Shown in pieces: positions 13,823 to 50,668 of a DNA stretch of 64,000 nt (positions are counted from its first letter, which is position 1; every line of letters begins with the position of its first letter). The position numbers and the translations under genes are program-made. This DNA comes from Saprospiraceae bacterium (GTDB taxonomy: Bacteria; Bacteroidota; Bacteroidia; Chitinophagales; Saprospiraceae). The notes below the pieces were generated by a model that saw nothing but the letters and a program-made list of their open reading frames with translations, was not told where the DNA came from and searched no databases. The DNA is taken from positions 1-64,000 of the forward strand of contig JABAQQ010000020.1 in NCBI GenBank assembly GCA_019187225.1. Reading direction: 5' to 3'.

Positions 13823-13957
13823 AGGCGGATATTGGATTTTTTGACATTGGATGTTGGATGTTTTGAAGTTGGACGTTGGACGTTGGACGTTGGATGTTGG
13901 ACGTTGGACATTGGACGTTGGACGTTGGACGTTGGACATTTGAACTTGACAACCAAT
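13823..13957. repeat. Left arm of a GGACRTT heptamer hairpin element
   Basis: The left end AGGCGGATATTGGAT (13823-13837) is matched by its inverse at 15314-15328 (14 of 15). It is followed by an array of GGACRTT units up to 13941 and then the core TTTGAACTTGACAACCAAT, which corresponds to the loop of the same element elsewhere. The rest of the loop and the right arm lie beyond the IS element and a second palindrome. Confidence 0.8.
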
Positions 13958-14003
13958 TAAGTTCATTGACAAGATTATTGTAACTTTTTTTTAGTTTTGC
14001 TGC

Positions 14004-15040
14004 ATGGACGGAAGAACACGACTGATTAAATTGACCGAAACGGAGCGCACAGCGTTAGAAAAGGCCTACAAAACAGGCAAGCGGGCCGTTTTTCGGCAGC
14101 GGTGCCATTTTGTGCTCTTGAGTGACCAAGGGTATGGAGTAAAGGAAATTGCGCAAGTATACCAAACTACCCGACAATTGGTCGGCCGTTGGCTGGATCG
14201 CTACGAAGGTGCTGGCATAGATGGACTGCATACGCGCCAAGGTCGTGGGGAAAAACCGATCCTACGGGTGGAAAATACCGCGCAGGTCGAGCGCGTCAAG
14301 GCGTTGGTAGCCGAACATGCTCAGGATTTAAAGCCGGCGATCGCAACCTTGGAATCAGAACTGGGCCGTTCGCTGTCGAAACGCACGCTGCAACGCTTTT
14401 TAAAAAAATTGGTTACGCCTGGAAACGCTTCCGCGCCGTAACGGCCGGCAAACCCCAGATGAGTGAATACGTGCAAGGCCATCAACGCTTGCAACACCTG
14501 CTGGAACTGGCCGCAGGTGGGCACATTGAGTTGCGCTTTGCGGATGAAACGGGCTTCTCGCGCTTACCCAATATTCCCTACGGATGGCTGCCGAAAGGGG
14601 AACAAACGGGTATACTGGCTGATAATCAGCGGGTGATGAACGTCTTTGCTTTGATGTCCCTGGACCATAAACTTTGCGCCTATCCGACCAAAGAAACCAT
14701 CTCGGCCGACTTCATTATTCGTGCGCTCGACGATTTTTGTACAACCCTGCAAAAACCGACCGTGGTAGTGCTCGATCAAGCCCCCTGGCACAGAGCCGCA
14801 CGGCTGCAAAACCGTATACCCGGCTGGCAGCAACAAGACCTGTTCTTGTTTTTCCTGCCACGCTATAGTCCCCACCTCAATGCCATTGAAATTTTGTGGC
14901 GACGCATTAAATATCAGTGGCTTAAGCCGGCTGATTACCGCTCGGCCGAATCTCTCAGGCAAGCCATTTACCATATCTTCAAGCACTTCGGAGCGCTGTT
15001 TCAGATCAACTTTTCAAAGAACTATGAAATGTTACAATAA
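14004..15040 (+). CDS. IS630-family transposase, made by -1 frameshifting
   Basis: Two overlapping frames together encode a DDE transposase of about 345 residues. The first frame (from ATG 14004) has the helix-turn-helix DNA-binding part (VKEIAQVYQTTRQLVGRWLDR). The second frame carries the catalytic part: D in RFADETGFS, D in VVVLDQAPWHRA, and E in NAIEILWRRIK. The switch is at 14402-14408, where the first frame reads A AAA AAA; a one-base backward slip joins LKK to IGYAWKR. The first frame alone stops at 14441 and would give a 145-residue DNA-binding product. The stop codon lies inside the right terminal repeat. Apparently intact. Confidence 0.88.
14402..14408 (+). other. Programmed -1 ribosomal frameshift site (A AAA AAA)
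   Basis: Seven adenines positioned in the first transposase frame as TTA AAA AAA TTG, which fits the X XXY YYZ slippery heptamer. Slipping back one base joins the DNA-binding frame to the catalytic frame of the IS630 transposase. No stimulatory structure was worked out. Confidence 0.8.
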
Positions 15041-15068
15041 TCTTGTTCCACTACTTAGTTAACTCAAG

Positions 15069-15249
15069 TTGTGACCTATTGTTTCACCCCGAGGGTTGTC
15101 ATGTCGGAACGCAGTGAAGACATCTACACAACATGCTTTATCCCGAAATCCTACGCTTTTTTACAATATTTCGGGTTACTTGAGTTGTGTAGTTTCCTTC
15201 ACTGTGTTACGGAATGACAGTTTTCGGGAAAGGAAAAGATAGGTCACAA
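15069..15249. repeat. Concentric inverted repeats between IS630 and the membrane-protein gene
   Basis: Nested pairs share one centre near 15159: TTGTGACCTAT (15069-15079) with ATAGGTCACAA (15239-15249); GTCAT (15098-15102) with ATGAC (15214-15218); CTACACAAC (15124-15132) with GTTGTGTAG (15184-15192); CCCGAAAT (15142-15149) with ATTTCGGG (15168-15175). No gene is visible in this stretch. Confidence 0.85.
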
Positions 15250-15328
15250 TTTGCGTTATTTAGTCAAACGTCCAATGTCAAAAAATCCAACGTCTAACGT
15301 CCAATGTCAAAACATCGAATATCCGCCT
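15250..15328. repeat. Right arm of the interrupted heptamer hairpin element
   Basis: Starts with the end of the loop (TTATTTAGTCAAACGTCC, 15256-15273), continues with complementary YGTCCAA-type units, and ends with ATCGAATATCCGCCT (15314-15328), the inverse of the left end at 13823-13837. It reaches the stop codon of the next gene. Confidence 0.8.
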
Positions 15329-15794
15329 AATACGCTATGAGCCGCAAGGCAACAGCAGAAACAACGACGAGTAAAGCGCTTAAAACAATCCCCACGATGG
15401 CGAGCCTGCGGATCCCTCTTGTATCCTGCCAGGAACTGGCTTTTATCAAACCGAAAATGCTGCAAAACAACCCGGCAATACCGAGCGCGAAAGGCAGATA
15501 AAAATCTATGATAAAAATGAAAGACAGCGACAGGACGCCGAGCACGGCAAGCGTCAGGCCTGCAATGGCCAGCCACTTCCCGTCGCCTTCGCCGGAGCGC
15601 GCCATGATTTTGCTCATGCGTTTGAGGAGCCGTTTTTCGGCAAATCTTTTCAGGAACCCGCGTTTTTCAGCGCTTCGTTCGGTAGAAAAAGAAACCTGGG
15701 AAGATTCGATCTCACCGCATGCCGGAGATGCCGGAACAGCGGCGCCGACGATGCAGGAGATGTTGAGTAAAAGAATGAATAACAAATAGCGCAT
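15327..15794 (-). CDS. Small membrane protein, DUF4190-like
   Basis: 155 residues. An N-terminal hydrophobic segment (MRYLLFILLLNISCIVGAA) looks like a signal peptide. A basic stretch with KRFAEKRLLKRMSK (about 49-62) follows, then two to three hydrophobic helices with GLTLAVLGVLSL and FALGIAGLFCSIFGLI, the pattern of small DUF4190-type proteins. Function unknown. The end of a palindromic element touches its stop codon. Confidence 0.7.
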   Translation of the reverse strand: MRYLLFILLLNISCIVGAAVPASPACGEIESSQVSFSTERSAEKRGFLKRFAEKRLLKRMSKIMARSGEGDGKWLAIAGLTLAVLGVLSLSFIFIIDFYLPFALGIAGLFCSIFGLIKASSWQDTRGIRRLAIVGIVLSALLVVVSAVALRLIAY

Positions 15795-15857
15795 GGATAG
15801 AAAATATAGTCGTTTGAAAGTGATTTGAATGGTTTGAAATTATTTGGTAACCCTGGA

Positions 15858-17150
15858 TCATTTGACAACCACCATTTTCCGCACTGCCGGCTTGAAACCG
15901 TCCAGCAACAGACGATAGTAATAAAAACCGGTTTCTAATTCTCCGGCGCTCAGGCGCTGCGTGTACGTTCCCGGCGAAAGCGATTGATTGACCAGTGTGG
16001 CTCTTTTTCGCCCGCTCAGGTCGAAAACAGCCAGTTCCACTTGTGCGGGCACAGCGAGGGAGAACGAAATAAGGGTCTCGTCGCCGAACGGATTGGGTGT
16101 GTTTTGCAGCAGCTCCGCACCGCTTGCGGCGAATGGTTCGGACGCGGCCACCAAATTTCCGGGGTCGAAAACCTCGACCGATTTGAGCACGCCGCTTTCG
16201 TTGTTGCCGCCGAAAACATAGACTTTTTTGTCAACTGCAGCGGCAGCATGCGCCCGTCTCGCAGTGAGCATGGACGCGACTGGGACGGTTGATATAGGCG
16301 CCAAAGACATCTTTATCATTTCAGCAGAAGCATGCACGGGGCCACCCATGGCGTCCATGCCGCCCATCACAAAAACCTTGTCGTCAATGGCCGCAGAACC
16401 GTGAAACACGCGGGGTACGATCATAGTACCCAAGGGGCCCCATCCTCCCAATATGTCGAAGAACAAAATGCTGTCCTCTGCAGGTGTTGCAGGGCCCGAA
16501 ACACCTCCAAAAATTAAAAAGCCGATGCCGAAATTCGAATTATGGGTTGTATGGCCTCCCCGCGCAAAGCCTGTGAGTGTCGGCCCGGCCGTCCATGTAT
16601 TGGTAGAAGGCCCGTAAAACACCATGGTGTCTAAGACGGATGCTAAGAAAGCGGTTCCGCCGCCAAAGACGGCAATTTTGTTACCAAAACTAATACTCGA
16701 TAAAAAATTCGCGCTTGCGTAGCCCCGTGCAGTCGGCATGGGCGCCAGCGTTTTCCAGGTATTGTTTGTCACGTCGTATTCCAACGCAGCGTCAGAAACC
16801 AGACCACCGAAAGTCGTATATCCGCCGAACAGGTAAATTTTGCCGTCCACCTCGACAGTAGCAGCCCCGCACAAAGCCATCGGCATGGGCGCTTTGGCGA
16901 TAAAAGTGTCTGCAACGGGATCATACTCCCAAACCTCATTGGTGCAGGCCGAGAGATCCGCACCGCCACCGAACAGGTAAATTTTGTCGCCGGATGCCGC
17001 TCCGGAATGGTGGTTTTTGAAAACTGGCATATCGGCTTTCGGTGTCCAGGTTCCCTGGGCGAGGGCGTTGGTCAGGGGGAGAAGCAAGGGGAGCGCCAGT
17101 GCGCTGAAGGTTTGCCCGATGGTTTTCGAAATAAATCTTAAATATTTCAT
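15858..17150 (-). CDS. Kelch-repeat secreted protein with T9SS sorting domain
   Basis: 430 residues from the start chosen at 17148-17150, which places a signal peptide (MKYLRFISKTIGQTF..., ending NALAQ) at the N terminus; a start 16 codons earlier is possible. Repeated kelch units with the (I/V)YLFGG signature (GDKIYLFGGGAD, GKIYLFGGYT, KKVYVFGGN) should form a beta-propeller. The C terminus has the T9SS type A domain (LLQNTPNPFGDETLISFSL, then AVFDLSGRK and a final RKMVVVK). Expected outside the cell or at the surface; ligand unknown. Three similar T9SS beta-repeat genes follow one another here on the same strand. Confidence 0.88.
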   Translation of the reverse strand: MKYLRFISKTIGQTFSALALPLLLPLTNALAQGTWTPKADMPVFKNHHSGAASGDKIYLFGGGADLSACTNEVWEYDPVADTFIAKAPMPMALCGAATVEVDGKIYLFGGYTTFGGLVSDAALEYDVTNNTWKTLAPMPTARGYASANFLSSISFGNKIAVFGGGTAFLASVLDTMVFYGPSTNTWTAGPTLTGFARGGHTTHNSNFGIGFLIFGGVSGPATPAEDSILFFDILGGWGPLGTMIVPRVFHGSAAIDDKVFVMGGMDAMGGPVHASAEMIKMSLAPISTVPVASMLTARRAHAAAAVDKKVYVFGGNNESGVLKSVEVFDPGNLVAASEPFAASGAELLQNTPNPFGDETLISFSLAVPAQVELAVFDLSGRKRATLVNQSLSPGTYTQRLSAGELETGFYYYRLLLDGFKPAVRKMVVVK

Positions 17151-17224
17151 AATCAACAGTTTAAAGAAATGAATGATACTTTTGGCTTTAAACCGCATTC
17201 ATTCTGGAGGGATTTTCAGAGATT

Positions 17225-19984
17225 TTATGGAGCAATCACCCGCACACTCACCGTTCCTTTCCCCGTCCGCAGGCACAAAACGTATGCTCCCGGCTCGAGC
17301 GATGCCGGGAAAAGGATGGTTTCCCGATGATCGCCTGCCGGCCTTTTTTCATTTTGAAAGAAGGTGTGCCGCCTTCGTCCCCGGAGGTCGAATAATTCGA
17401 GCGAAACCGCTCCGGCTTGAGTCAACGTGTATTCAAAAATGGCCTGGCCTCGCACCGGGTTCGGATAAACAAGCAAGGCTGTCGCGCCTGAGGAGACATC
17501 CGCCACACCGACGTTCAGCCCGTTCAGGTAACGGACCACCAGGTATTGATTGCCGGAGTAACCTGCCGCGAGGTAGTTCCCGTCGGACTGAAGGGCGAGC
17601 GCGTTCAATTCCTGCTGCCCGGGAAGTTCCGTTTTGAGAAAGCCCGAATTGCCGAAACTCGTGTCGGGCGAACCGTTCGGAAGCAGGCGAACCAAAAGCG
17701 GGTCGTAGTTTTCAAATACATCGCTGTCGGCACTGAAGCCGGTCAGCACGATTTTACCATCGGTTTGGACGGCGATCGCTTTTGCTGTTTCCACCGCTCC
17801 TGTGTTGATGATGACCAGTCCGTCGTTTCCAAAGCTGGTATCCTTCGTGCCGTCGCCGTTCAAACGCCCCACCACAATCTGCTGATCGCCAGGTGCGCCG
17901 GAGTTGCCGCAAATCAGGATGCGTCCGTCGGTCTGGAGTGCCATCCCGTAAAGCCGGAAGGTTATCGGAAAGTTGACTGAAAGCAGGCCTCCCGTCCCAA
18001 AATTCGGGTCAGGCTGGCCGTTCGGCAGGCAGCGCGCCAAGACGGGTTGAGAAATGCCGCCCTGGGTAACGAAGTGATTGGCCGCTACCAAAGTTTTGCC
18101 ATCAGGCAATATTGCCCCTCCTGCCACTTCATAATAATTCGCACCAGATTGAAAAACAAGTACGCCTGCATCGCCAAAGGACAAATCCAGGTGGCCGTCG
18201 GGCAGGAACCGCGCGATGGCAATTTTCTGCTTGTTTGTGCTGTAAGAATAGGAATGCCCTGCGACCAAAATTTTGCCATCGCTTTTTTGGAGCAAAACCC
18301 TTGCGTTTGTGAGGTAATCCGCCGACCCTTCTATCGTTGCAATGGCAATGCCGCTGCCGGCCGTGCCGAAACCCGTATCAAAGTCGCCATTCGGGAGCAT
18401 CCTTGCAACCGCAAACCCGGAGGAGCCCGGCAAAAGTTGCCCTTCGCCTGCGGCCAGGATTTTTCCGTCGTTTTGACGGGCAAGCAGATTGAGTGTCAAA
18501 AACTTAGTAGTGTCGTTAAAAACCAGCGGCGCAAGCCCATCCCCGGAAAAAGACACGTCTTTCGAGCCATCGGGCAACAATTGCAGGGCAAACGTTTGGC
18601 TTTTTTCTATTGTTCCGCCCATCAAAATCCGGTTTTGGTCATCTGCGAGGACGGATGTGGCAGTGGCATTGCCGAACAGGTTGTCTTTTATTGCGAAACC
18701 GTTTTGAGCGAAAGTTTCGTCCAGGGAAAAGTCGGCCTGTAGGCGAGTCAGGCAAAAATCCGTGAGAAAAAATTCATTTTCCGCCCCGCCACCTATCACC
18801 AGTTTGTTGTCGGGAAGTAAAAACATTCCAGCCTTGAAAAAGCCCGAAACCGGTAATTGAACCACTTTGTCTCCAAAACTCGTGTCAAATAGTCCCGATG
18901 GCAGGTATCTGAAAAACCGGACTGCTGCGGAGTCGTTGGAAACGGTAAAATCAGGGCCGCAGAAAAGCAGCCCGCCGTCGGGTTGTTGCGTCAAATCCGA
19001 GACAATACCAGAGCCGATTTGCGCTTCAAACGAAGTATCAATCAAACCATCGGCGTTGAGCCGTCCCGCAAACCAGTGATCAACCGGGAAGTCCGGGAGG
19101 ATGCCGGAAATGACGATTTTACCATCGGATTGGACAAGCAATTTATCTATTCCCGTATAAACATTTGACAGCGGAGCGAAGCCATTCTGCCCAAAAGAAC
19201 TATCCAATAATCCATCCGGATCGCAGCGGGCAACCAAAGCCGCTCCCCCCTTTTGCCCGCCGATAATAATGGCGCTATCGCCTTGAAAAGCGAGGGATTG
19301 AACAAATGAAGAGTAACCCGGCCCCAAATCCTCAAAAACGTAGCCGTTTTCTCCAAAACTTGTATCTACGGAACCATCGTAGTTCAACCGAAGCAAGGCC
19401 AAAGCCCAGGGGTGCGCTGAACTGTCAGACCCGGCCCCGCCAATGATGATTTTGCCATCCTTTTGACAAATAATGGCCGAGACATTCTGCAAACTATCCG
19501 ATTTGAAAACGCCCTGCTCCCCAAAACCGGCGTCCACCGAGCCGTCTTCGTTAAGCCTTCCAACCTCGCAGCCCGGCCAGCCCCTGAAAACGGTCAATAG
19601 TTTTCCGTCTGTTTGCAAAAATGCAGCATTAACATCAACATAGGCGGGCCAAACGACTGCACCCTGCTGCCCAAAACCGGGATCAGGCATTCCATTCTCG
19701 TCGAATTGGACAATGGCAGCGATGTAATTCCATACATACGGTATGTTTCGGTCTACCGAATTTGTGCTTCCAACGAGCAATACCTTGCCGTTCTGCCGGG
19801 CGAGTAAAAATTTTGGATCGTCCCATCCGCCGATGCTTCCAGTGAAAATACCGCTGTGGTTGAAAGTCGAATCGAGCCAAGTGTTCTGGGATTTTGCTGC
19901 GAACAGCAGCATTAAAAAAAGGGTGGTTGAAAGAAACCGTTTGCTCGCAGCATTAAGCAAAATGACAGCAATTGAGTTTTTCAT
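17225..19984 (-). CDS. Delta-60 repeat secreted protein with T9SS sorting domain
   Basis: 919 residues with a signal peptide (MKNSIAVILLNAASKRFLST..., ending FAAKSQN). Most of the protein is roughly 55-60-residue units with the form R(L/F)xxDGxxDxSFGxxG followed by LLxxDGKILxxG, the delta-60 repeat (probable beta-propeller or solenoid). The C terminus is a T9SS type A domain (VYPNPVRGQAIFEYTLTQAG, then LELFDLRGRR and a final TVSVRVIAP). No enzyme domain is visible. It follows the kelch gene on the same strand. Confidence 0.9.
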   Translation of the reverse strand: MKNSIAVILLNAASKRFLSTTLFLMLLFAAKSQNTWLDSTFNHSGIFTGSIGGWDDPKFLLARQNGKVLLVGSTNSVDRNIPYVWNYIAAIVQFDENGMPDPGFGQQGAVVWPAYVDVNAAFLQTDGKLLTVFRGWPGCEVGRLNEDGSVDAGFGEQGVFKSDSLQNVSAIICQKDGKIIIGGAGSDSSAHPWALALLRLNYDGSVDTSFGENGYVFEDLGPGYSSFVQSLAFQGDSAIIIGGQKGGAALVARCDPDGLLDSSFGQNGFAPLSNVYTGIDKLLVQSDGKIVISGILPDFPVDHWFAGRLNADGLIDTSFEAQIGSGIVSDLTQQPDGGLLFCGPDFTVSNDSAAVRFFRYLPSGLFDTSFGDKVVQLPVSGFFKAGMFLLPDNKLVIGGGAENEFFLTDFCLTRLQADFSLDETFAQNGFAIKDNLFGNATATSVLADDQNRILMGGTIEKSQTFALQLLPDGSKDVSFSGDGLAPLVFNDTTKFLTLNLLARQNDGKILAAGEGQLLPGSSGFAVARMLPNGDFDTGFGTAGSGIAIATIEGSADYLTNARVLLQKSDGKILVAGHSYSYSTNKQKIAIARFLPDGHLDLSFGDAGVLVFQSGANYYEVAGGAILPDGKTLVAANHFVTQGGISQPVLARCLPNGQPDPNFGTGGLLSVNFPITFRLYGMALQTDGRILICGNSGAPGDQQIVVGRLNGDGTKDTSFGNDGLVIINTGAVETAKAIAVQTDGKIVLTGFSADSDVFENYDPLLVRLLPNGSPDTSFGNSGFLKTELPGQQELNALALQSDGNYLAAGYSGNQYLVVRYLNGLNVGVADVSSGATALLVYPNPVRGQAIFEYTLTQAGAVSLELFDLRGRRRHTFFQNEKRPAGDHRETILFPASLEPGAYVLCLRTGKGTVSVRVIAP

Positions 19985-20125
19985 CGTCGCAGGTTTTTCA
20001 TCGTGAAAGAGAGCCTTATTTCTACTGGAGCGCCACTGATATTTTTTTAAATAGATACTGATACGGCATAAAAAGCAATTGAATGGTTAGAGAATCAGGT
20101 TTCCATTGAAAAGGACCGACCCTTA

Positions 20126-21553
20126 TCACTCCACCGAAATCCTTCCCCGGTACACGGCGCCTCCTTTCCCCTCCACTGCGATCAGGTACGTGCCCGTGCG
20201 CAAACCACTCACATCGAGTACTATTTGTTCCAGGTTGTCCACCGAATGGCTTTGTTCCAAGCAACCTTCCGAATTGAACAGGCGCAGATAAGTGGCATCC
20301 GGCGGAAGCGGTACGAACAAGCGGGTATGCGCCGGGTTGGGATAAGGAGGCTGAAGCGTCAGGGGCGCCGGAGGACCGGGTCTGCCCGAAATACCGGTAT
20401 AAATATCCACGACGTCGGAATTGCCCGAGCAACAATACCCCCCTGCGAACAGGAGTTTGTCGCCCACCGTTATGGCGCTCAATCCGCTGCGCGGAACGGA
20501 CAAGTTGCCCAGCGTGTCCCACATGCTGCTGACGCAGTCGTATACTTGCACACTGCCTACCACATCGGCGAGAAAAAGTTTGTCGCCGGCAGCGGCGAAA
20601 GAACCCGCCGCATGTTGCACCGGAACCGGTACCATGTCCCATGTTCCGGAGGCCGCATCGTACACATCCAGCAGACTCCGGTTGTCATCGCCAATAAAAT
20701 AGACTTTGTTGCCTACAACAGCACTGTAAAGGCTGCCGGCATCGCCGTCGAGCGTCATGGTTGTAGAAATCCATTCGTTGAAATCGGCGTCGTATATGCT
20801 CACTGTATTGGTATTGGCGCCATCCGGGCCCTCACCGCCCGCCAGCAGCGCTTTGTTGCCGGCTGCAATCGCTTCGATCTGCGCTCTTTTTTCCGGCAGG
20901 GTATAGATGGTCTGCCTCCACGTTTCCGTGTTCAGTATGTCCACCACATCGCTGACGCCGTCGGTTTTGTACCCACCTGCCAGCAATATCTGTTTGCCCA
21001 CCCCGGCGATGGCGATACCGGTGCGCGGTTCGGACAACTGGATGGCGCGCCAGGTGTTGGTTTTGACATTGTACAAATCCACCGTCCTGGACAAGGCGTC
21101 CGGCGACAGGGCGCCGCCGGCAAATACGACGTAATCGCCGGCAATACCGACGCTGACTGAGCGGCGCGGCTCCAAAAGCATGGCGGTCGTCCAACCGTTG
21201 CTGGCGGCGTTGTATATCCAGATTTCACCGCTCATGCTGTTGTGGTCAGTGGCAAACACCATCGCGCTGTGCGCGACCGCCGAGAAGTCGGGGTAAAGGT
21301 TGCGGGAAGGATTGGGCACATCGTACAACGACCAGGAGCCCGTATTGGCATCGTAAATATCCACCCGCGTACTGCCCCTGCCGTCGTCCGTTTTGCCGCC
21401 GACAAAAAGCGCCTTGTTTGCCGCCACAACCACCTGAGGCTGGAAACGGGCTTCGGAGAGGCGGGCAGTCCCCCATTGTCCCCGAAGCGGCAGGATGATC
21501 AAAAGAGCTCCTGCCAGCGACAATACAGCGCTTAAAACCTTGTTATTTGTCAT
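20126..21553 (-). CDS. Kelch-like secreted protein with T9SS sorting domain
   Basis: 475 residues with an N-terminal signal segment (MTNNKVLSAVLSLAGALLII). Six or more kelch-type units with xxLLAGG or xxLFAGG motifs (KQILLAGGYKTDG, NKALLAGGEGPDG, DKLLFAGGYCC), each followed by a VDIYD or VDILN segment. The C terminus has the T9SS type A pattern (PPYPNPAHTRLFVPL, then SGLRTGTYLIAVEGKGG and a final YRGRISVE). The stop lies 12 bp from the PEP synthase start region; both read on the minus strand. The 141-bp gap downstream to 19985 shows nothing recognisable. Confidence 0.85.
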   Translation of the reverse strand: MTNNKVLSAVLSLAGALLIILPLRGQWGTARLSEARFQPQVVVAANKALFVGGKTDDGRGSTRVDIYDANTGSWSLYDVPNPSRNLYPDFSAVAHSAMVFATDHNSMSGEIWIYNAASNGWTTAMLLEPRRSVSVGIAGDYVVFAGGALSPDALSRTVDLYNVKTNTWRAIQLSEPRTGIAIAGVGKQILLAGGYKTDGVSDVVDILNTETWRQTIYTLPEKRAQIEAIAAGNKALLAGGEGPDGANTNTVSIYDADFNEWISTTMTLDGDAGSLYSAVVGNKVYFIGDDNRSLLDVYDAASGTWDMVPVPVQHAAGSFAAAGDKLFLADVVGSVQVYDCVSSMWDTLGNLSVPRSGLSAITVGDKLLFAGGYCCSGNSDVVDIYTGISGRPGPPAPLTLQPPYPNPAHTRLFVPLPPDATYLRLFNSEGCLEQSHSVDNLEQIVLDVSGLRTGTYLIAVEGKGGAVYRGRISVE

Positions 21554-21565
21554 GATCCCGAATAT

Positions 21566-24130: not shown

Positions 24131-24288
24131 GACATTCCGATTTTTGTTCTGTGCAAAGATGCCGCGAAAGCGGGCGGGAACGAATGACGGATGTCAAGGG
24201 AGGGGGTGATTTTGGGGGGAGGAGTTTTGCGACATACAGCCCGGAAACAGCGTTAATAAAATTGCATTGAAAATTAATTTCTAAAAAA

Positions 24289-24336: not shown

Positions 24337-24353
24337 TTAATACAACGCATCTC

Positions 24354-27970: not shown

Positions 27971-28021
27971 AATTTACATTGAGCCTCATCAGGTAAAATT
28001 ATTTTTCTATTTTTGCTGGAT

Positions 28022-28145
28022 AAGTGTGCGAATATAATTGGACGTTGGATATTGGACTTTGGACTTTTACCCTCACAACCAATAATGGAGTCCAATATCC
28101 AACGTCCAAAGTCCAATATCCAACGTCCAAAGTCCGGTTATTCAA
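28022..28145. repeat. Heptamer hairpin element between CBS and receiver-Crp genes
   Basis: Left arm 28040-28066 (GGACGTTGGATATTGGACTT), loop around CCCTCACAACCAATAATGGAG in two pieces (28070-28079, then 28080-28090), and a right arm of complementary GTCCAA units to 28136. The loop resembles the core shared by the other copies but is the most diverged. It fills the divergent promoter region of both genes. Confidence 0.75.
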
Positions 28146-30802: not shown

Positions 30803-31012
30803 GTAAGTACACATGGACAATGGATTTTTGACATTGGACATTGGACGTTGGACATTGGACGTTGGACATTGGACGTTGGACATTGGACATTGGACGTTGG
30901 ACATTGGACGTTGGACATTGGATATTGGACATTGGACGTTTGCCCCTGACAACCAGTCATTTGGTCAAACGTCCAATGTCTAATGTCAAAAATCCAACGT
31001 CCGCATGCGTAA
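30803..31012. repeat. Heptamer hairpin element with intact core
   Basis: Left end GTAAGTACACATGGACAATGG in two parts (30803-30810, 30811-30823), about 15 GGACRTT units to 30941, the core starting CCCTGACAACCAGTC at 30944 and ending ATTTGG at 30964, a right arm of complementary units, and the right end CCGCATGCGTAA (to 31012). The arms are unequal in length. Confidence 0.85.
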
Positions 31013-31155: not shown

Positions 31156-31264
31156 ATAAGTACATGGACAATGGATTTTTGACATTGGACATTTGACCAA
31201 ATGATTGGTTGTCAGGGTCAAACGTCCAATGTTCAATGTCGATTTATTTTGTCCGCTTACTTAA
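31156..31264. repeat. Heptamer hairpin element, inverted orientation
   Basis: Starts ATAAGTACATGGACAATGG (31156-31174), core in reverse orientation (CCAAATGATTGGTTGTCAGG, 31197-31216), ends TTTTGTCCGCTTACTTAA (31247-31264). Both ends match those of the neighbouring copy and the copy at 50512-50668. It lies directly before the LolA-like gene and supplies part of its leader. Confidence 0.85.
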
Positions 31265-37780: not shown

Positions 37781-37905
37781 CTATTGGACGTTGGACGTTG
37801 GACATTGGACATTGGACATTGGACGTTGGACGTTGGACGTTGGACGTTGGACGTTGGACATTGGACGTTGGACGTTGGACGTTGGACGTTGGACGTTGGA
37901 CGTTT
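37781..37905. repeat. One-armed GGACRTT heptamer array
   Basis: About 17 heptamers (GGACGTT and GGACATT) directly after the stop of the HhH gene. No complementary arm or core is present, so this is a partial or collapsed copy of the hairpin element. The remaining 114 bp to the PolX start are AT-rich without a gene. Confidence 0.9.
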
Positions 37906-38019
37906 AAAATTAATATATTATAAATTATGAATTTTATAATTTTTAAAAATGTTCAATGTACACTGATCAATGTACAATGTACAATATCCTGCATCCTGTA
38001 ATGATTAAACACTGGCACC

Positions 38020-40438: not shown

Positions 40439-40445
40439 AGTACCT

Positions 40446-41270: not shown

Positions 41271-41344
41271 GTTATGAGTTATGAGTTATGTATGATGAAT
41301 GATGAAAAAAAACAAACTTGCACCAACCGAACACTATCATCGCA

Positions 41345-41507
41345 TTCCCGTCTACCATCTACCTTCCGCCGTCTACCTTCTACCATCCACCGTCAACCGT
41401 CTACCGTCTACCATCTACCGTCTACCCTCCACCGTCTACCCTCCACCGTCTACCATCCACCGTCTACCATCCACCGTCCACCATCCACCGTCCACCGTCC
41501 ACCGTCC
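41345..41507. repeat. Seven-bp tandem repeat running into the glucokinase start
   Basis: About 22 copies of ACCRTCY (mostly ACCGTCT, ACCGTCC, ACCATCC) fill the region up to the ATG at 41508. All three forward frames are open through it, so the glucokinase frame continues upstream as a Pro/Ser/Thr-rich stretch to 41274. Whether any of this is translated is unclear. Confidence 0.92.
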
Positions 41508-42524: not shown

Positions 42525-42932
42525 TGGTATTTTTCGGTGGTGGATATCATTCAGGTGTTGATTCAACAACCTGATTTTCAAGCAGCACGCAAATATTGGA
42601 ACAAGATGAAAGAACGGCTTGGTAAAGAAGGAAGTGAAACGGTGACAAAATGTCACCAGTTGAAATTGCCAGCGGAGGACGGCAAAATGCGCCTCACCGA
42701 TGTAGCCGACGTAGAGACGCTGCTACGGCTGGTTCAATCTGTCCCCAGCCCCAAAGCCGAGCCAATAAAACTTTGGTTGGCAAAAGTCGGCTATGAACGA
42801 ATGCAGGAAATGGCAGATCCCGAGCGATCGTTGGACCGGGCGCGTGAAAACTGGAAGAAATACGGCCGCAGCGAAAAATGGATTCAGCAGCGCATGATGG
42901 GACAGGAGACCCGCAACATATTTTTCCCCTGA
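42525..42932 (+). pseudogene. Truncated Bro-N/DinD-like gene fragment
   Basis: Codons from 42525 read WYFSVVDIIQVL and continue KYWNKMKERLGKEGSETVTKCHQLK and VQSVPSPKAEPIKLWLAKVGYERMQE, the hallmark of Bro-N/DinD-type phage and DNA-damage-induced proteins. The family normally starts about 20 residues earlier and continues well past RNIFFP; here the 5' end is missing (similarity begins at the codon following the glucokinase stop) and the 3' end is cut. A GTG at 42537 could start a 131-residue product, but a remnant is more likely. Confidence 0.75.
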
Positions 42933-42947
42933 TACGAAAACATTTAA

Positions 42948-43147
42948 GACCCCGAAGGGGTCGAATTTGAATAGCCCGGCGTTTCACGCCGGGTATTCGT
43001 GATGTCGGATCGTTTCACAACCGCAAAGCGGTTGAATTTGAGGAAGTTATTTGCCGGACATTCAACCGCTTCGCGGTTGCGTCACATGGTTTGGGACCCC
43101 GACCCGGCATTTCAGGCCGGGTTATTCAAATTTGACCCCTTCGGGGT
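42948..43147. repeat. Six-hairpin concentric palindrome
   Basis: Three layers share one centre near 43048. Outer: GACCCCGAAGGGGTC (42948-42962) and GACCCCTTCGGGGTC (43133-43147). Middle: CCCGGCGTTTCACGCCGGG (42975-42993) and CCCGGCATTTCAGGCCGGG (43103-43121). Inner: CAACCGCAAAGCGGTTG (43018-43034) and CAACCGCTTCGCGGTTG (43063-43079). Every piece is itself palindromic and also pairs with its partner. From 43148 to 43484 I see no gene; the segment is AT-rich. Confidence 0.93.
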
Positions 43148-43484
43148 CTCTGGTGTAGATACATGAAGAAAAAGCGATTCAATTTACAGATCATGGGGAA
43201 ATGGGGTTGGCTTGAGGTTAAAATACTGATTTACAACAACCTGCGTTAAATAACCAAAACTTTATCGTTCCTTAAATCCGGGATAATGCATGTTTATTTT
43301 TCAGAAAACATTGATCCGGGCGGAACATTCGTTAAAGTGATTATACTTGCATGAAGAATCCTCCGCGTCTCCTCCTTATTCTTACCACTTCAAAACGTTT
43401 GGTTTTGGGAAGTGTCCTGAGCCCGCAAGGGCACCAACAATCAAAATTTGGGGTTTCCATATTGATTTTAAAATAATAAAATAA

Positions 43485-44384
43485 ATGTTTAACAAAGGAG
43501 AAATTGTTCGTCGTTCAGAACTTCATGACAAGTTTGGTGGAAGTCGCCAAGGAGGAATTGCTAATTGTGCAAGATATCCTTATATTTTCATTTTCTCTTC
43601 TCATTCTGGAAAAGGGCATGGTTATGATGATGGTTGGGATGAAGATGGAAACTTTTGTTATACAGGAGAAGGACAATTAGGTGACATGAAATTTACAAAA
43701 GGGAATCTTGCGCTTCGAGACCATATTAAAAATCAAAAAAGAGTATTTTTATTTACGTTTTATAAAAAGGGGGCCTGGAAATATATTACTGAACTTGAAC
43801 TATTTAAAGACCCATTTGAATTTAAAACTATAGATAAAAACAATGATTATAGAAAAGGAATAAAATTTGTCTTTAAATCGCTTACTCCAATATCTTATCT
43901 GAATCAAGAGAGTCAGATAAATATTTTAGAAGAATATACAACGAAGTATCAACCGATTCGGAACAAGCCTAATGAAACAGAAAGAAACGGATTGGTAAAC
44001 TCGCGGGTTGGCCAAGGGTGGTATCGCCTAAATATACTATCCAGATGGGATAATAAATGTGCCGTAACGGGGTGTAATATTCCTAATATATTGATTGCAT
44101 CCCATATTGTACCTTGGAACCAAGCAACTGACGAAGAGCGGCTTGATATTGAAAATGGAATATTGCTCGCTCCTCATATCGATGCATTATTTGACAAACA
44201 CTTAATATCCTTTAACGATGATGGAAAAATTATTATCTCACATAGAATAATCCCCGAACTACATTCTATTCTCTGTATTAATTCAGAAATGAAAATTTAT
44301 GACCTTTCTGAAAAAAACAAAGAGTACTTAAAAAGGCATAGGGAAGTTTTTCACTCAAATAATAGTATAGAAAATCGGCAGTAG
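43485..44384 (+). CDS. Probable type IV restriction endonuclease (SRA-like plus HNH)
   Basis: 299 residues. The N-terminal half (about 1-130) resembles the SRA-like base-flipping domain of ScoMcrA-type enzymes (GSRQGGIANCARYPYIFIF, SHSGKGHGYDDGW, YTGEGQLGDM). The C-terminal half is an HNH nuclease with zinc-type cysteines C192 and C197 (CAVTGC) and catalytic H207, N224 and H231 (ASHIVPW, NGILLAPHIDALFD). Such enzymes cut DNA carrying modified cytosines. It has no methyltransferase partner, as expected for type IV. The gene is markedly AT-rich and sits among remnants, indicating transfer. Confidence 0.82.
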   Translation: MFNKGEIVRRSELHDKFGGSRQGGIANCARYPYIFIFSSHSGKGHGYDDGWDEDGNFCYTGEGQLGDMKFTKGNLALRDHIKNQKRVFLFTFYKKGAWKYITELELFKDPFEFKTIDKNNDYRKGIKFVFKSLTPISYLNQESQINILEEYTTKYQPIRNKPNETERNGLVNSRVGQGWYRLNILSRWDNKCAVTGCNIPNILIASHIVPWNQATDEERLDIENGILLAPHIDALFDKHLISFNDDGKIIISHRIIPELHSILCINSEMKIYDLSEKNKEYLKRHREVFHSNNSIENRQ

Positions 44385-44514
44385 TACTAATAATGGACGT
44401 GAGAAATCTAGTATGAGTTTGCGACATCACCAGAAGGCACACCAAATTTGACAACCGATTATCTTCTTAATGCCGGTTTCTATTGACATCCCCGCTATAT
44501 ATGGAATACACATC

Positions 44515-45735
44515 CTACATCAACCACTTCTTCACCCCCTTCATCTTGCTCAATCCCCAGATAAGCCCGACGGAAAGCAGCGCAGCCGTAGCCGCCTGCA
44601 GCAGCACCCCGAACAGCGGAAAAACCGGTTGGTTGAACCAGGTATCCGAAGTGATGTGCCATCCTGCTAGGTAGCCGTTTTTCAACACGTCGAGTATCAG
44701 CACGTGCACGAAATAGACGCCGAAACTCAGCCCGGCGAGCCGGTGCACCCAGGCGTCGAGGCGCGGCCAGCGGGCAGCGAAGGCGGACCAGTCGGATTCG
44801 CGCAGCCAGGTGAACAGGGCCGCCGTCATGATGATCACGTTGGGACTGAAATAGACGTACAACGTCTGGTCGTGCGCGCCGCTGCGCAGCGAAAGCCACC
44901 AGGTGCCGAGGGCGGTGACGAGGGGCATGGCCAACCCCAGGGCGTACAGGGCCCTTTTCAGCGGACGCGATAATGTGTAGGCGCTCAGGTAGTAACCCAG
45001 CACATAGAATCCGATATAGCCCAGCCAGCCGATGTATTTGACAATAAAAAGTCCCGGCACAAGGTGTTGCAGGGCGGTAATGGTGAAAGCGAGCGCCAGG
45101 AAATATTCGATGTCGCTGCGACGGGCGTGCTGAATAAATATCCTGAAAACGGGAGTGAGCAGGTACAATCCGATGATCATCGGAATGAACCAGAGATGGT
45201 AATACACGTCTTCGAAGAATACTAAGTGCAGGACGCTGGACAAGGTGGGCCAGTCGTCGCCGAGCAGGGTGCCGCGGTACTGGTAGGCGGTGTACACCAA
45301 TCCCCAGAAAATAAAAGGCGGCACGACCCGCCTGACGCGCTTCAGCAAAAACTGTTGCGTCGCTTCGGGTCGCGACGGGCGCAAAAAGACGCTGCCGCTG
45401 AGCAGGATAAAAAAGGGCGTGGCCCAGCGCAGGAGACTGCAATAGATGTTGGCCGTCCACCAGTGGATATCGAGGGAATTGGCCGGGTCGAACTGCTGCA
45501 AATAAGCGCCGCTGGAGTGGATCGTGACGACCGCCAAAGCGGCCATACAGCGGACGTAGTCGGAGTACAGGCGAATCACCGGCGTTGCCGGGAGGGCGGG
45601 TTGTTGTCCTTGCGGTCCGCCGGGCGTTGAAACGGCAATGGCGGCGCTTCCGTTGACGGCGCCCGACGGCCGGACTTGCTCCGGTTTTTCCGCCGTCAGC
45701 CCTCCCCTCCAATCCGGGATAAGTTTATTCGGCAT
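44515..45735 (-). CDS. Acyltransferase 3 family membrane protein
   Basis: 406 residues from the start chosen at 45733-45735 (MPNKLIPDWRGG); an upstream in-frame ATG at 45831 would add 32 residues that look unlike protein. About ten membrane helices. Family features are RLYSDYVRCMAALAVVTIHSSG (the catalytic-type H in TIHSSG), HLWFIPMIIGLYLLTP and LSFGVYFVHVLIL. These enzymes O-acylate surface polysaccharides or lipids; acceptor unknown. The 130 bp upstream of the stop (44385-44514) hold nothing recognised. Confidence 0.87.
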   Translation of the reverse strand: MPNKLIPDWRGGLTAEKPEQVRPSGAVNGSAAIAVSTPGGPQGQQPALPATPVIRLYSDYVRCMAALAVVTIHSSGAYLQQFDPANSLDIHWWTANIYCSLLRWATPFFILLSGSVFLRPSRPEATQQFLLKRVRRVVPPFIFWGLVYTAYQYRGTLLGDDWPTLSSVLHLVFFEDVYYHLWFIPMIIGLYLLTPVFRIFIQHARRSDIEYFLALAFTITALQHLVPGLFIVKYIGWLGYIGFYVLGYYLSAYTLSRPLKRALYALGLAMPLVTALGTWWLSLRSGAHDQTLYVYFSPNVIIMTAALFTWLRESDWSAFAARWPRLDAWVHRLAGLSFGVYFVHVLILDVLKNGYLAGWHITSDTWFNQPVFPLFGVLLQAATAALLSVGLIWGLSKMKGVKKWLM

Positions 45736-45802
45736 TGCGATGCGTGGATAAAAAATCAGCGTATATTGTTGTTTTGGAGAGGATTGTCTCGAAAGGAGCA
45801 GG

Positions 45803-46066
45803 GTGTTGGGTATCGGCCATTGGCGCCGCAAAAATATTGATTCTTTTCCGGTTGTGAAGGAAATTCAGGTTCAAATAATCCCTTACTTTCGCTCGCCGGG
45901 AATTACCTGGAGCACTGGATTTATTTTTCAATTTGATAAATTCAATATAGGTTTCCTGTTAGGCAAAGATTACGCAAGCGGTATTGGCGACCAGTGGATC
46001 TATCAGGATAAAATGTGGTATTCCTTTGCTATTGGCTATAGCTTCACAAAGCCGGACGAAAAGTGA
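45803..46066 (+). pseudogene. C-terminal fragment of an outer-membrane-type protein
   Basis: An 87-codon frame starting at GTG whose last 55 codons read as amphipathic beta-strands (ITWSTGFIFQFDKFNIGFLL, WYSFAIGYSFTKPDEK), like the last hairpins of a barrel protein. There is no signal peptide or upstream body, so this is probably the tail of a lost gene. It could also be a small expressed protein. It lies divergent from the acyltransferase gene. Confidence 0.4.
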
Positions 46067-46100
46067 ACACTCGCAAAATAACAGATAGTCAAAGTTTACT

Positions 46101-46862
46101 TCACTTCTCTGCTCCCATTGAAAAACCTTCCGATAAAGCATTGATATTGTTGTACAAGCGCTTGCCGCGCCTTTCCAGGCCGGCCAGAATTTTTTTGTCC
46201 GAAAAGCCTTCTTTTTTCAATAGTTCGACGGCCAGCACCACATCGTGCCACTTTCCGATGGCATCCTGCAATTGATCCAGATTGTCGGTATCCAATTTCA
46301 ATTTTTGCACGAGCCGCTCAGACAGGCAGGCGTGCAGATAAAGAAGGTTTTTTATTTTTTTCCGGGTTTGGTGCAGTCCCTCTACGGTGTGTTCAGTCCG
46401 GACAAAAACGCGGGCTATTTTTTGAAGGCGCTTTTGATAGAACCGGATGACGGTTCCATCCTCCGCGTCGCGGAATTGACCTGCCAGTACCGGCCGTATT
46501 TTTTCAAGGGTTCTGAGATATACCTTCCGCTTCGCAAACAAGCGCCGGGTTTCCCTGACCAGGATATTTTCCTGTGCCCTTTTGTGCGCGCCAGCGGTCA
46601 GTTGATACTGATCGAAAAAGCACAAATTGATCCATGCGCTGCGGATGTTACCAGCATGACGAAAAATGGACCGCAACGCTTTCAACTCTTTTGACCGCGC
46701 ATTGTCCTGCCAAAAAAGCGACATTGCTTTGATCTTCTTTACCTGCACGCGGAATTGATGCAAGGCTTCTGGGTCCTGCGTTTCGTAAAAGGCCAGCAAG
46801 TGGGCGAGCATGGATTGCCATACTTCGTTAAAATGCGCTCGTTGCCGGCCTTTTTTCAGCAT
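46101..46862 (-). CDS. CHAD domain protein
   Basis: 253 residues. The CHAD (conserved histidine alpha-helical) domain binds polyphosphate; visible hallmarks are EALHQFRVQVKKIKAMSLFW near the N terminus, REHL-like basic helices, and VEGLHQTRKKIKNLLYLHACL in the second half. The start is placed at 46860-46862 (MLKKGRQRAH); the 13 residues further upstream are encoded by a short GGACGTT inverted repeat (46871-46893). No attached CYTH domain. Confidence 0.88.
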   Translation of the reverse strand: MLKKGRQRAHFNEVWQSMLAHLLAFYETQDPEALHQFRVQVKKIKAMSLFWQDNARSKELKALRSIFRHAGNIRSAWINLCFFDQYQLTAGAHKRAQENILVRETRRLFAKRKVYLRTLEKIRPVLAGQFRDAEDGTVIRFYQKRLQKIARVFVRTEHTVEGLHQTRKKIKNLLYLHACLSERLVQKLKLDTDNLDQLQDAIGKWHDVVLAVELLKKEGFSDKKILAGLERRGKRLYNNINALSEGFSMGAEK

Positions 46863-46897
46863 AGCGTAAGGACGTTGGATTGTTGGACGTCCAACAG

Positions 46898-48388
46898 TCA
46901 AACCTCAAATTCCTTCTCTTCCTTTTTACAGATCAACTGCGCCACATTCCGCCCCGACATCATGGCCGTCGGAATACCGCCGCCGACGGCGATCCAGTGG
47001 CCGCACATGTAAAAATGGTCGAGTCCGGGCAAGGTATGAGGGAGTTCTTTGAAGCCCGTTTCGGGTGTGACCAGCCAGCCTTCGAAACTGCCTTTCCAGT
47101 TGTTGGTGAACCCGATGAGGGTGGCCGGCGTGCTCACGTCGGTCATTTCCACAAAATCGCGCACGTCGCCGATTTTGTGGTCCAGGATACGGATCACTTC
47201 GTCGGCGATGCGTTGTTTCTCCGCTTCGTACAATTCGGGCGTATCGCGTTGCAAGTCTTGCCAATAGGAATAATTGCGGGTTTCGATCATCGTACTCAGC
47301 AGCGTTTTCCCGAAGGGCGCCAGCGTCGGGTCGAAGTGGTGCACCCGCAGGTGCAGGTCGTGGATTTCCGTTTCCGGGTCTATGTGCAGGGGTTCTTTCA
47401 AAGGGAACAGGTAACTGTGTGGCACGGCGTGGAAGGTGCGCCCCACGCCGAGGGCGACATATACCAGCGATGGGAACGTTTTGCCCGTGGAGAAGTAATG
47501 TTCGAATTCCGGCGCGGTGTACCGCCCCTCGAGCATTTCAAAAATCGTGGCGTGGCCGTCGGCGGCAGAGACGATGTAATCGCCCCGGTAGGAAGCGCCG
47601 TTGGCCAGCTGCACGCCGACAGCGCGGTCGTCTTCCACGAGGATCTTTTTCACCCGGCTGTCGTAGTGAAAGACGCCGCCGAGTTGCTCGTAGCGGTTGG
47701 CGATGCGGTTGGCGAATTGCAGCGACCCGCCGATGGGATAACCTGCGGCTTTTTTGTGCATCCAGGCGAGCGTCATCATACAAAACAAAATGGGAATTTC
47801 CGGCTCGAACAAGTGGCCTATGGCTCTGCGCAGCAAAGGGTTTTGAAAACCCTGCGCATAGTCGGCGGTGCTGACGTGGCTGTACTTGCCCAGCGCGCCG
47901 AGGTGCGGCAACATTTTCCACAGCGTTTTCATTTTGTGCCACAGGTTGGCGGTTGCCATGGGTTCCCCGTTGGGCATCTCCATTTGAGCAAACTCATGGC
48001 AGGCGCGGATGAATTCCCTGATCTTCTCCGCATCTTCCGGCGCTTTTTCCAGCATTTCGGCCTGCAGGCGGTCGAGGTTGGTGTAAATGCGCAATTGATT
48101 GCCCTGCAAATCCTCCACCCGCATGAACTCCTCGTGGTTCACCACTTCGACGTGCGACATATCGGTCAACTCGTTCCAGCGCTCGTACAAGCTGTCCGAA
48201 GGTCCGGAGCCGACCAACCAGTGGATGCACCAGTCAATGGTATAATCGCCGCGTTTCCAAGCGGTGCAGACGCCGCCGGGTGTGTGGTTAAGTTCGAAGA
48301 TTTCGGTATCGAAACCGTTCATTTGCAGGTAAGCACCGGCGCTTAAACCGGCCATACCGCCGCCGATAAGGAGGACTTTTTTTCGCAT
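46898..48388 (-). CDS. FAD-dependent oxidoreductase of the CrtI/retinol saturase type
   Basis: 496 residues. The FAD-binding dinucleotide fold at the N terminus reads VLLIGGGMAGLSAGAYLQMNG with the acidic end of strand 2 in EIFE and GGVCTAWKRGDYTID after it. The C terminus has the second FAD motif with GLDHFYMCGHWIAVGGGIPTAMMSGR. The length and layout match carotenoid desaturases/isomerases and retinol saturases. Substrate unknown; no other carotenoid genes are in view. The start at 48386-48388 (MRKKVLLIGGG) is chosen over one 18 codons upstream. Confidence 0.85.
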   Translation of the reverse strand: MRKKVLLIGGGMAGLSAGAYLQMNGFDTEIFELNHTPGGVCTAWKRGDYTIDWCIHWLVGSGPSDSLYERWNELTDMSHVEVVNHEEFMRVEDLQGNQLRIYTNLDRLQAEMLEKAPEDAEKIREFIRACHEFAQMEMPNGEPMATANLWHKMKTLWKMLPHLGALGKYSHVSTADYAQGFQNPLLRRAIGHLFEPEIPILFCMMTLAWMHKKAAGYPIGGSLQFANRIANRYEQLGGVFHYDSRVKKILVEDDRAVGVQLANGASYRGDYIVSAADGHATIFEMLEGRYTAPEFEHYFSTGKTFPSLVYVALGVGRTFHAVPHSYLFPLKEPLHIDPETEIHDLHLRVHHFDPTLAPFGKTLLSTMIETRNYSYWQDLQRDTPELYEAEKQRIADEVIRILDHKIGDVRDFVEMTDVSTPATLIGFTNNWKGSFEGWLVTPETGFKELPHTLPGLDHFYMCGHWIAVGGGIPTAMMSGRNVAQLICKKEEKEFEV

Positions 48389-48484
48389 GATGCTGTTTTC
48401 AGGTTTGTAATGCGGTGCAAAAATAGGCGTCGGACGGCGCATGCACTATGACGCCGGTCGGGGGGACGGGTTGATCATGGTCAA

Positions 48485-50422
48485 TCAATTTTCACCGGCA
48501 GCGACGGAAACATCAGGTCTTTTGCCCAGAATTTTTTCCAGTTCGTCTTTCTCCACGACTTCTTTCTGCAGGAGCAATTCCGCGAGGTTTTCTAATTTGG
48601 AACGGTGCTCTTTCAGGATAGCGGTGGTTTTGTCGAAAGCCGTATCGAACAATTTGCGCACTTCTTCATCAATCAGCCGGGCCGTTTCTTCGCTGTACGG
48701 CTTTTGCAACATCGCGTCGTGCATGCCGGTAGAATCGTAAAAACTGAGGTTTTTCATGCGTTCGCTCATGCCGAGTTCGGCGATCATGACGTATGCCTGT
48801 TTGGTCGCTTTTTCCAGATCGTCGAGTGCGCCGGAGGAAACTTCGTTGAAAACGAGCGATTCGGCGGCGCGCCCGGCCAGCATGACGCACAGGCGCTCGA
48901 ACAACTGGGATTTCGTCAGTATCTGGTGTTCTTCCGGCAGGTACCAGGCGCTACCGAGCGATTTGCCCCTCGGGATAATGGATACTTTCACTAAGGGATC
49001 TACGTGTTCGAGCATCCAGCCCACCAGCGCGTGGCCCGCCTCGTGGTAACTGATCACCTTCTTCTCTTTCGGCGTGATGATCTTGGTCTTTTTTTCCAGC
49101 CCGGCCACGATCCGGTCGACGGCGCCGTAGAAATCGGCCATTTCGATCTTGTCTTTTTTAGCCCTGGCGGCGATGAGCGCGGCCTCGTTGCAGACGTTCG
49201 CGATGTCGGCCCCGGAAAAGCCGGGCGTTTGGGCAGCGAGGAATCCGGCGTCAATATTTACATCCAGTGTCAGCGGTTGAAGGTGCACCCGGAAAATGGC
49301 CTCGCGTTCCGCTTTGTTGGGAAGTTCTAAGTAAATATGGCGGTCGAAGCGACCCGGGCGCAGCAGGGCGGGATCGAGGATATCCGCCCTGTTGGTGGCT
49401 GCCATCACGATCACGCCGGTGTTGGGCGCAAAGCCGTCCATTTCGGCCAGCAACTGGTTGAGCGTACTCTCACGTTCGTCGTTGACCTGGTACGAGGCCG
49501 CCTTGCCGCGCACCCTGCCGATGGTGTCAATTTCGTCAATAAAAATGATACAGGGCGTTTTTTCCATGGCGCGGTCGAACAGGTCGCGCACACGGGAAGC
49601 GCCCACGCCGACGAACATCTCGACGAATTCCGACCCGGACAAGGAGAAGAACGGCACGCCGGCTTCACCCGCCACCGCTTTGGCCATCAGGGTTTTGCCG
49701 GTGCCCGACGGCCCGACGAGCAGAATGCCTTTCGGTATCCTCGCGCCGAGCCGGGTGAAGAATTGAGGATTTTTCAAAAATGCGACGATCTCCATGATCT
49801 CCGTTTTCGCTTCTTCATAACCCGCCACGTCTTTAAAGGTGATGGGGCTGATGTCGCCTTTTTCGAACAACACCGCTTTGGATTTGCCAAAAGAATAAAT
49901 GGAACTTCCCGTGCCTCCCATCGTATTGGCCATGCGCCCCATCACGAAGACCCAGAAGATCACCAACAGGATCAGGGGAAATATCCAGGCCAGGATCGTC
50001 GTCCACCAATTGTCGCGCTTGCTGTATTCGACCGCCACCTTGTCTTCCGGCGCGAATCCCGCCTGCGCGGCTTCTAATTGCTGCGTGAACACCTCCACCG
50101 ACCCGATGCGGAAATGGTAGTGCGGCCCCGCATTCGCCGAGCCGAATACGCCTTTGGCGATGTCCTTGTACATCTCTTTGCTGAGGCTGGCCGGTTTGAT
50201 ATAGACCCACACTTCTTCGTTGTTGACAATATCCACCTTGAGCACATCGCGCTGCTGCAACATTTTTTCATTGAATTCGCTCCAGTTGGTTTCTTTTGTA
50301 CTTTGCCGTGTGCCCCACCAGAACAATGCGAGGAGCAAAAACAAAATAAGGTAGAGCCAGCGCATCGAAACGAGCGGTTTTTCCTGTTGATCCGGCCTGA
50401 TTTTTCTTTTTTCTTTTTTCAT
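48485..50422 (-). CDS. ftsH: ATP-dependent zinc metalloprotease FtsH
   Basis: 645-residue membrane-anchored AAA+ protease that degrades damaged membrane and regulatory proteins. Two membrane segments (about 21-37 and 142-161) flank a small periplasmic domain. AAA domain: Walker A GPSGTGKT (237-244), Walker [10 protein letters not shown] (291-299), second region of homology [20 protein letters not shown]. Zinc site HEAGH at 460-464. The start is ATG 50420-50422 ([10 protein letters not shown]). Divergent from the Lon-like gene, with a heptamer hairpin element between. Confidence 0.95.
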
Positions 50423-50511
50423 AATTGTATCACATTTGCCTTTTTGCACCCTTTCACCAGATTGACCCCAAAAGTACCTGCCGGTTCGTTATTTTGCCAT
50501 TAAATCATGTG

Positions 50512-50668
50512 ATAAGTATGTGGACAAATAAATTGACATGGGACGTTGGACATTTGACATGGGACGTTGGACATTTGACGTTGGACGTTTGGCCCTGACA
50601 ACCAATCATTTAGTCAAATATCCAACATCCAATGTCCAATGTCCAAAATCCAATGTCCGCTTGCTTAT
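50512..50668. repeat. Heptamer hairpin element between ftsH and the Lon-like gene
   Basis: Left end ATAAGTATGTGGACA (50512-50526), GGACGTT-type units, core starting CCCTGACAACCAATC at 50593 and ending ATTTAG at 50613, complementary right arm, right end TGTCCGCTTGCTTAT (50654-50668). The ends are inverse to each other. It stops 15 bp before the ATG of the Lon-like gene. Confidence 0.85.

Follow-up and report, generated by a model that had tools for sequence, protein, structure and literature searches.

A dispersed intergenic hairpin with heptamer-repeat arms in a Saprospiraceae bacterium is very probably a miniature transposable element of the IS630 type

The window analysed here is a 64,000-nucleotide stretch of a Saprospiraceae bacterium (assembly GCA_019187225.1, contig JABAQQ010000020.1, positions 1 to 64,000), in which a preliminary description, made from the letters alone, had picked out five hairpins with arms of GGACRTT heptamers. 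These hairpins are one dispersed, non-coding element of ~107 bases (flanking TAs included), whose copies lie between genes. The element is very probably a miniature inverted-repeat transposable element (MITE) of the IS630 type, similar in plan to the pneumococcal RUP. Its copies have conserved ends that are mostly flanked by TA, their lengths step by one heptamer, the gene gap occupied by one copy is too short to hold it in most of the relatives compared, and an IS630 element whose ends match those of the hairpins is present in a sister genome. We infer that a transposase of the IS630 type moves the element and that its arms change by slippage after insertion.

Results

The element is repeated throughout one genome

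We searched the whole draft genome of the host (G000; 7.18 Mb, 73 contigs) with a 25-base core, CCTGACAACCARTCATTTRGTCAAA. With up to three mismatches the core was found at 72 places, against none for a reversed control, so the repetition is not due to chance. Both element ends were recognised at 59 of these places. A search with the left end found 77 places; the 26 that did not overlap the core list were retrieved, and 15 of them carried an alternative loop, TTGGAAACCAATCATTTAGTCTGA (<=3 mismatches). A covariance model (R1) was then built from the 59 copies, with just 17 base pairs, and gave 142 matches on both strands (E <=0.01) that correspond to 114 places on 40 contigs. Because this search scored 150 of 3461 candidates, element places may be missing from the 114. 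The genome-wide profile collection that the preliminary description had proposed thus places the core well beyond the window.

The family appears to be narrowly distributed. No other genome of the genus that was searched scored above 56.5 bits, a value that 102 of the 114 model places exceeded. When 42 genus genomes, the host's own included, were scanned under stricter filters than those of the host search, the model returned 92 matches in the host and weaker ones (<=56.5 bits) in 14 others. Those loci of relatives that were printed (three of them, L230, L233 and L247, displayed off their model match) mostly held hairpins with similar heptamer arms but different loops and ends. The core pattern was absent from 39 relatives save for two single matches, in G007 and G009; with three mismatches each, in near-identical stretches of both genomes and with neither arms nor ends, these were judged to be chance. 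An exact 20-base core had no match in 84,980 species genomes, a collection from which the host's own genome is possibly excluded, nor in viral contigs, and blastn of one copy against plasmids gave none (the host's own records being possibly excluded from both of the latter sets). Within the host, the alignment of 59 copies had a mean pairwise identity of 0.83, and the nearest neighbour was at least 0.97 identical for 11 of the 59.

Conserved ends enclose arms that change by whole heptamers

Between the flanking TAs the consensus is AGTA[AT]G[CT]GGACAAAATAAAT[CT]GACATTGGACATTGGACGTTTGACC[CT]TGACAACCAATCATTT[AG]GTCAAATGTCCAATGTCAAAAATCCATTGTCCATGTACT, with inverted termini of the form AGTAnGYGGACA. 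The inverted terminal motifs that had been reported for three of the window copies are therefore real on reading. Tandem arms of variable length are likewise present, but the arm unit is looser than the GGACRTT first described, since GGATATT and other variants also occur. Of the window copies, that at 28022-28145 is diverged and that at 13823-15328 has an interrupted loop.

With ends set by the model, the A-to-T length was 105/106 bases at 63 of 97 places (the partial match L023 being excluded from this recount), 98/99 at 10 and 112/113 at 7. With ends set by pattern, 57 of 77 copies measured 105/106, seven 98/99 and four 112/113. This second sample was drawn from 98 candidates after exclusion of 13 cores missing ends, 5 long copies and 3 found by the left end only; its left ends lie 13 bases too far in for L026, L031 and L056, and its right ends fall at an inner repeat for L035 and L055. 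The open reading frame (ORF) context count and the array-period test given below rest on these pattern-set copies. Two window copies, 50512-50668 and 30803-31012, are longer than the main length classes. As the lengths are grouped in one-heptamer steps, slippage probably contributes to the history of the element. The original contention that the hairpins did not arise by passive slippage is supported as to a mobile, structured unit with conserved ends and loop, but needs adjusting to give slippage a part.

The palindrome folds strongly. Three copies, two from the window and one from elsewhere, were folded as single-stranded DNA, and in each case none of 200 shuffles was as stable (z = -4.4, -8.1 and -4.9). 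At 6 of the 17 predicted pairs, at least one sequence is altered on both sides with pairing retained.

Copies are intergenic and mostly flanked by TA

With model-set ends, TA flanked the element on both sides at 59 of 97 places, with T before it at 85 and A after it at 84, counts that lean toward TA because the model expects the TA itself. Pattern-set ends gave TA on both sides of 53 of 77 copies, and bases further out were not strongly conserved. One copy (L022) sits between two ABC-transporter genes that are 147 bp apart in the host. Of the 27 relatives that have both genes in the retrieved locus, 21 have a gap no longer than 84 bp, a comparison of gap lengths rather than of base-level junctions. 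Some copies lie within periodic arrays, where the effect of excision on the period can be followed: removal that leaves exactly one TA best restores the period in L017, L022 and L052. At a threshold of 0.65, three arrays favoured one TA and one favoured two; under a stricter test L017 alone remained, favouring one TA. The idea of a mobile, structured unit is supported by the TAs at both ends of most copies, by the short gap at this one site in most of the relatives compared and by the three arrays that fit a single duplicated TA.

None of 77 copies lay within an intact ORF (>=80 codons); genes broken by insertion were not searched for. We could place 74 copies relative to their neighbouring genes (3 remained unplaced), of which 44 were in tandem, 19 in divergent and 11 in convergent gaps. 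As background, 400 kb of host sequence was sampled, and its 294 gene pairs comprised 166 tandem, 58 divergent and 70 convergent ones.

An IS630-family transposase is the likely mover

The loop of one window copy contains an IS630-family insertion sequence (IS; 13960-15055, plus strand), with ends AGTTCATTGACAAGATTATTGTAAC and, as reverse complement, AGTAGTGGAACAAGATTATTGTAAC, and with TA at 13958-13959 and 15056-15057. Its first reading frame (14004-14441, plus strand) encodes a helix-turn-helix (Pfam HTH_28, HTH_23 and HTH_29), and the second (14189-15040, plus strand) a DDE_3 transposase domain (Pfam DDE_3, 3e-28; NCBIfam IS630 transposase, 125 bits against a cut-off of 100). The two frames overlap, and a stretch of A residues close by could mean a programmed frameshift. 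This is the sole DDE_3 transposase detected in the whole host assembly. The ends of the IS resemble those of the hairpin element, with shuffle p values from 0/5000 to 0.024 depending on the end type.

Relatives of the window transposase (E <=1e-10) were present in five of the 42 genus genomes, the host's own included. In the sister genome G044, a relative with 39% identity lies in a 1098-bp IS630 element (L224, 1469 and 2566), both inverted ends of which read AGTATGTGGACACAAATAAA. The first 12 bases of these ends are identical to one end type of the hairpin element. Against that end type the two ends scored 17 and 19, where the shuffle maxima were 11 and 12 in 20,000, and against the other end type they scored 13, with a shuffle maximum of 11. 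The matching ends point to a transposase of the IS630 type as the likely mover, not to a RAYT. A hunt for an autonomous copy in the host, using the end pattern with up to two mismatches, gave 174 matches against 134 for a control, with no clear pair at IS distance among the matches listed. The host may no longer have the exact partner of its element, or the partner may lie in a gap of the assembly.

Copies in the window

All five places listed in the preliminary description were read, and each is a copy of the one element, with four of them recognisable and the fifth split by insertions. The canonical copy (31156-31264, minus strand) comprises 107 bases including both TAs, plus one base on either side, and reads TTAAGTAAGCGGACA ... 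loop CCTGACAACCAATCATTTGGTC ... TGTCCATGTACTTAT (model match 133.3 bits; fold z -4.42). Close to it, the copy at 30803-31012 (plus strand; model match 30896-31012) has a short right arm and a strongly expanded left arm, in which a tandem repeat finder counted 17.7 units at 30814-30937. Both arms are expanded in the copy at 50512-50668 (plus strand; model match 78 bits), which has the ends ATAAGTATGTGGACA and TGTCCGCTTGCTTAT. The copy at 28022-28145 (plus strand) is diverged, retaining heptamer arms and a loop CCCTCACAACCAATAATGG (given also as CCCTCACAACC) between decayed ends; the model matched it at 28020-28131 (E 6.2e-8), and its fold z was -8.06.

The loop of the copy at 13823-15328 is split by the IS630 element described above (13960-15055; 1096 bases) and by a second palindromic insert. 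Its left half (13823-13959, plus strand) consists of the heptamer arm and the first half of the loop, ends in the TA at 13958-13959 and, being interrupted, has no model match; its right half (15259-15328, plus strand) reads TTTAGTCAAACGTCCAATGTC ... ATATCCGCCTAATA. The second insert separates this right half from the IS; it occupies approximately 15058-15256 (no strand assigned) and reads TTAACTCAAGTTGTGACCTAT ... ATAGGTCACAATTTGCGT. An end similar to that of this insert adjoins a copy in L028; for this reason the insert may belong to another TA-inserting family.

Other repeat-armed hairpins in the genus

Hairpins with tandem-repeat arms are not confined to this family: related species have unrelated ones, also with conserved cores. 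Sampling found 16 in 400 kb of the host, 79 in 460 kb of G046 (L314-L317, L323-L341), one in 200 kb of G009 and none in 93.5 kb of G054, against 0 of 726 in the null; 2 of the 23 stretches of G046 (L340 and L341) had been picked for holding an IS630 relative and the palindrome L239. The hairpin cores of G046 form several families, some of them palindromic themselves. In the core type GTAGAGTACACC...GGTGTACTCTAC, the flanks are complementary in 24 of 24 paired cases, one of them barely above threshold, with 21 left and 27 right motifs unpaired. The palindromic core type with complementary flanks occurs with at least three types of arm repeat. Varied units are present in 37 of 46 testable equal-arm hairpins of G046, and 33 of these 37 match better in register than when shifted by one unit, a result that is favoured by the picking of arms through best local alignment. 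In the host, two of four varied-unit arm pairs were in register.

With more doubt than confidence, we suggest that the element could be a member of a broader and so far undescribed class in the genus, in which tandem repeats with units of 7 to 14 bases form inverted arms around a conserved core, and in which a shared process of transposition and arm-to-arm hairpin copying keeps the arms mirrored while their units turn over fast. Arm-to-arm copying within the hairpin is a guess at the mechanism.

Several further structures were seen along the way. At window positions 1-240, a hairpin outside the heptamer-element family has arms of an octamer, GGATATTG, repeated ~16 times and facing an inverted partner array, with a different loop. 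Inverted arrays of the CGCAGATTT type flank ~58754-58785 within 58642-59203, as another repeat-armed hairpin. At 37784-37985, an AT-rich spacer separates some 17 TTGGACG heptamers from inverted units of the AATGTAC type that come after it, with no core and no model match. L239 (G046, contig C44) is a long near-perfect palindrome with ends ATAAGTACCAGGTCAATA; it starts with TAAGTA, as the element does, has no heptamers and is possibly another IS630-type MITE. A second hairpin type in the host, with GATATTAA arms and the loop CCTTGACAATCAGTAGGTTACGGC, was found at four places (L016, L026, L056 and L114). We suspected a separate mobile family and rejected it: all four lie within 100 bases of a main-element place, so they may travel with the main element.

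Discussion

We propose that a trans-acting IS630-family DDE transposase would bind the ends, in which TA is followed by AGTAnGYGGACA, and would move the ~103-base palindrome into TA dinucleotides, duplicating the TA; a full IS630 partner would bear the ends AGTATGTGGACA. The period-7 units of the arms suggest that replication slippage would then add or remove heptamers, while the ends and loop would retain the parental sequence.

Besides the lean of the model-set counts toward TA, a number of observations weigh against this proposal. Flanking TAs alone cannot distinguish a target duplication from a part of the inverted repeat. Among the 114 model places, 12 score at or below 56.5 bits, and a number of them may be heptamer hairpins that have no core. 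The ends of the window IS match the element less well: of 28 alignment columns, 20 agree in one printed pair and 21 in the other. The better-matching element of G044 is flanked by TA at one end but by CA at the opposite end, and has a stop inside its transposase match. In the host draft of 73 contigs, no IS630 element with such ends turned up among the matches listed. At the ABC-transporter site, the gap is 209-621 bp in 6 of 27 relatives (that of 209 bp, the sole one printed, is without the element), and G009 and G007, which have the most similar protein (85-86%), carry the two genes non-adjacently and are thus uninformative; two more relatives with a match lie outside the retrieved set. Finally, the arrays at L007 and L112 fit another version better than one TA.

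Three other origins were considered. The hairpins might be transcription terminators or regulatory RNA hairpins retained for their function, an idea that accords with their strong folding, their intergenic position and the pairs that changed on both sides with pairing retained. The gene context of the copies, however, resembles the gene-pair background, with no excess after gene ends and so no sign of a terminator role, and the window had 0 Rfam matches at the gathering threshold; we consider this very unlikely, although secondary use of single copies is possible. Alternatively, immobile hairpins might have formed in place, as a common heptamer was multiplied by slippage and duplicated in inverted orientation. 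Arm lengths do change in sevens, core-less heptamer arrays such as that at 37784-37985 exist, and other members of the genus have hairpins with similar heptamers and other loops. Yet some 100 places share a common core and ends, the ends stop at TA, and the gap in relatives lacks the element, all of which requires dispersal. An origin in place is therefore contradicted for the core family, for which we hold it to be highly improbable; it could hold for the core-less arrays.

The least probable account is that of REPIN-like palindromes moved by a RAYT, a Y1 tyrosine transposase, the linkage that the preliminary description had put forward for checking. The hairpins are palindromic and intergenic and number over 100, and the host genome has three Y1_Tnp matches. 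The copies found nearest to these three genes are 28.6, 37.0 and 93.0 kb away, so that none lies within 28 kb, and linkage to a RAYT was rejected. Y1 elements are not known to have inverted-repeat ends with TA, whereas the ends of the hairpin are inverted, carry TA and match an IS630 element. An IS630-type MITE remains our preferred reading.

Among known systems, the closest is RUP of pneumococcus, of 107 bp and with 108 intergenic copies, which inserts at TA and has short inverted ends like those of IS630-Spn1 (PMC2229807). The two are alike in length, copy number, intergenic position, TA and IS630-like ends. They differ in host and in the tandem-repeat arms (the word "tandem" is absent from the text of that source as available), in a comparison by description, not by sequence. 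Correia/NEMIS elements, with forms of ~107 and 155 bp, share the shorter length and the inverted ends with TA; as described, their ends are of 24 bp and their long form contains a 50-bp internal segment in place of heptamer expansion (PMC2229807). The closest MITE with tandem repeats is BrickBuilt of Porphyromonas gingivalis (19 copies, variable-length duplications), which is also intergenic and of narrow host range. BrickBuilt has a 23-base direct repeat in a single array and IS5-family-like ends, whereas here the tandem units form inverted arms around a loop, with IS630-like ends (PMC4596501). The TAACTGA heptamers of Beggiatoaceae, found also in some Bacteroidetes, are similarly abundant and intergenic, but consist of one fixed heptamer in direct repeats with no evident mobile mechanism, the word "transposase" being absent from the available text (PMC4679880). 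Intergenic heptamers and hairpin MITEs are thus known elsewhere (PMC4679880, PMC4853749). Among the matches listed in a search of open-licence titles and abstracts, none described a MITE with inverted heptamer arms, and such arms are what sets the element apart from RUP-type MITEs.

An abundant repeat of this genome thereby gains a clear identity, tied to an IS630 partner, as a MITE whose arms act as minisatellites. Owing to these minisatellite-like arms, individual copies might be usable for telling strains apart. If the wider class of repeat-armed hairpins is real, it would provide a natural system for studying how bacteria make, copy and tolerate long repeat-armed palindromes.

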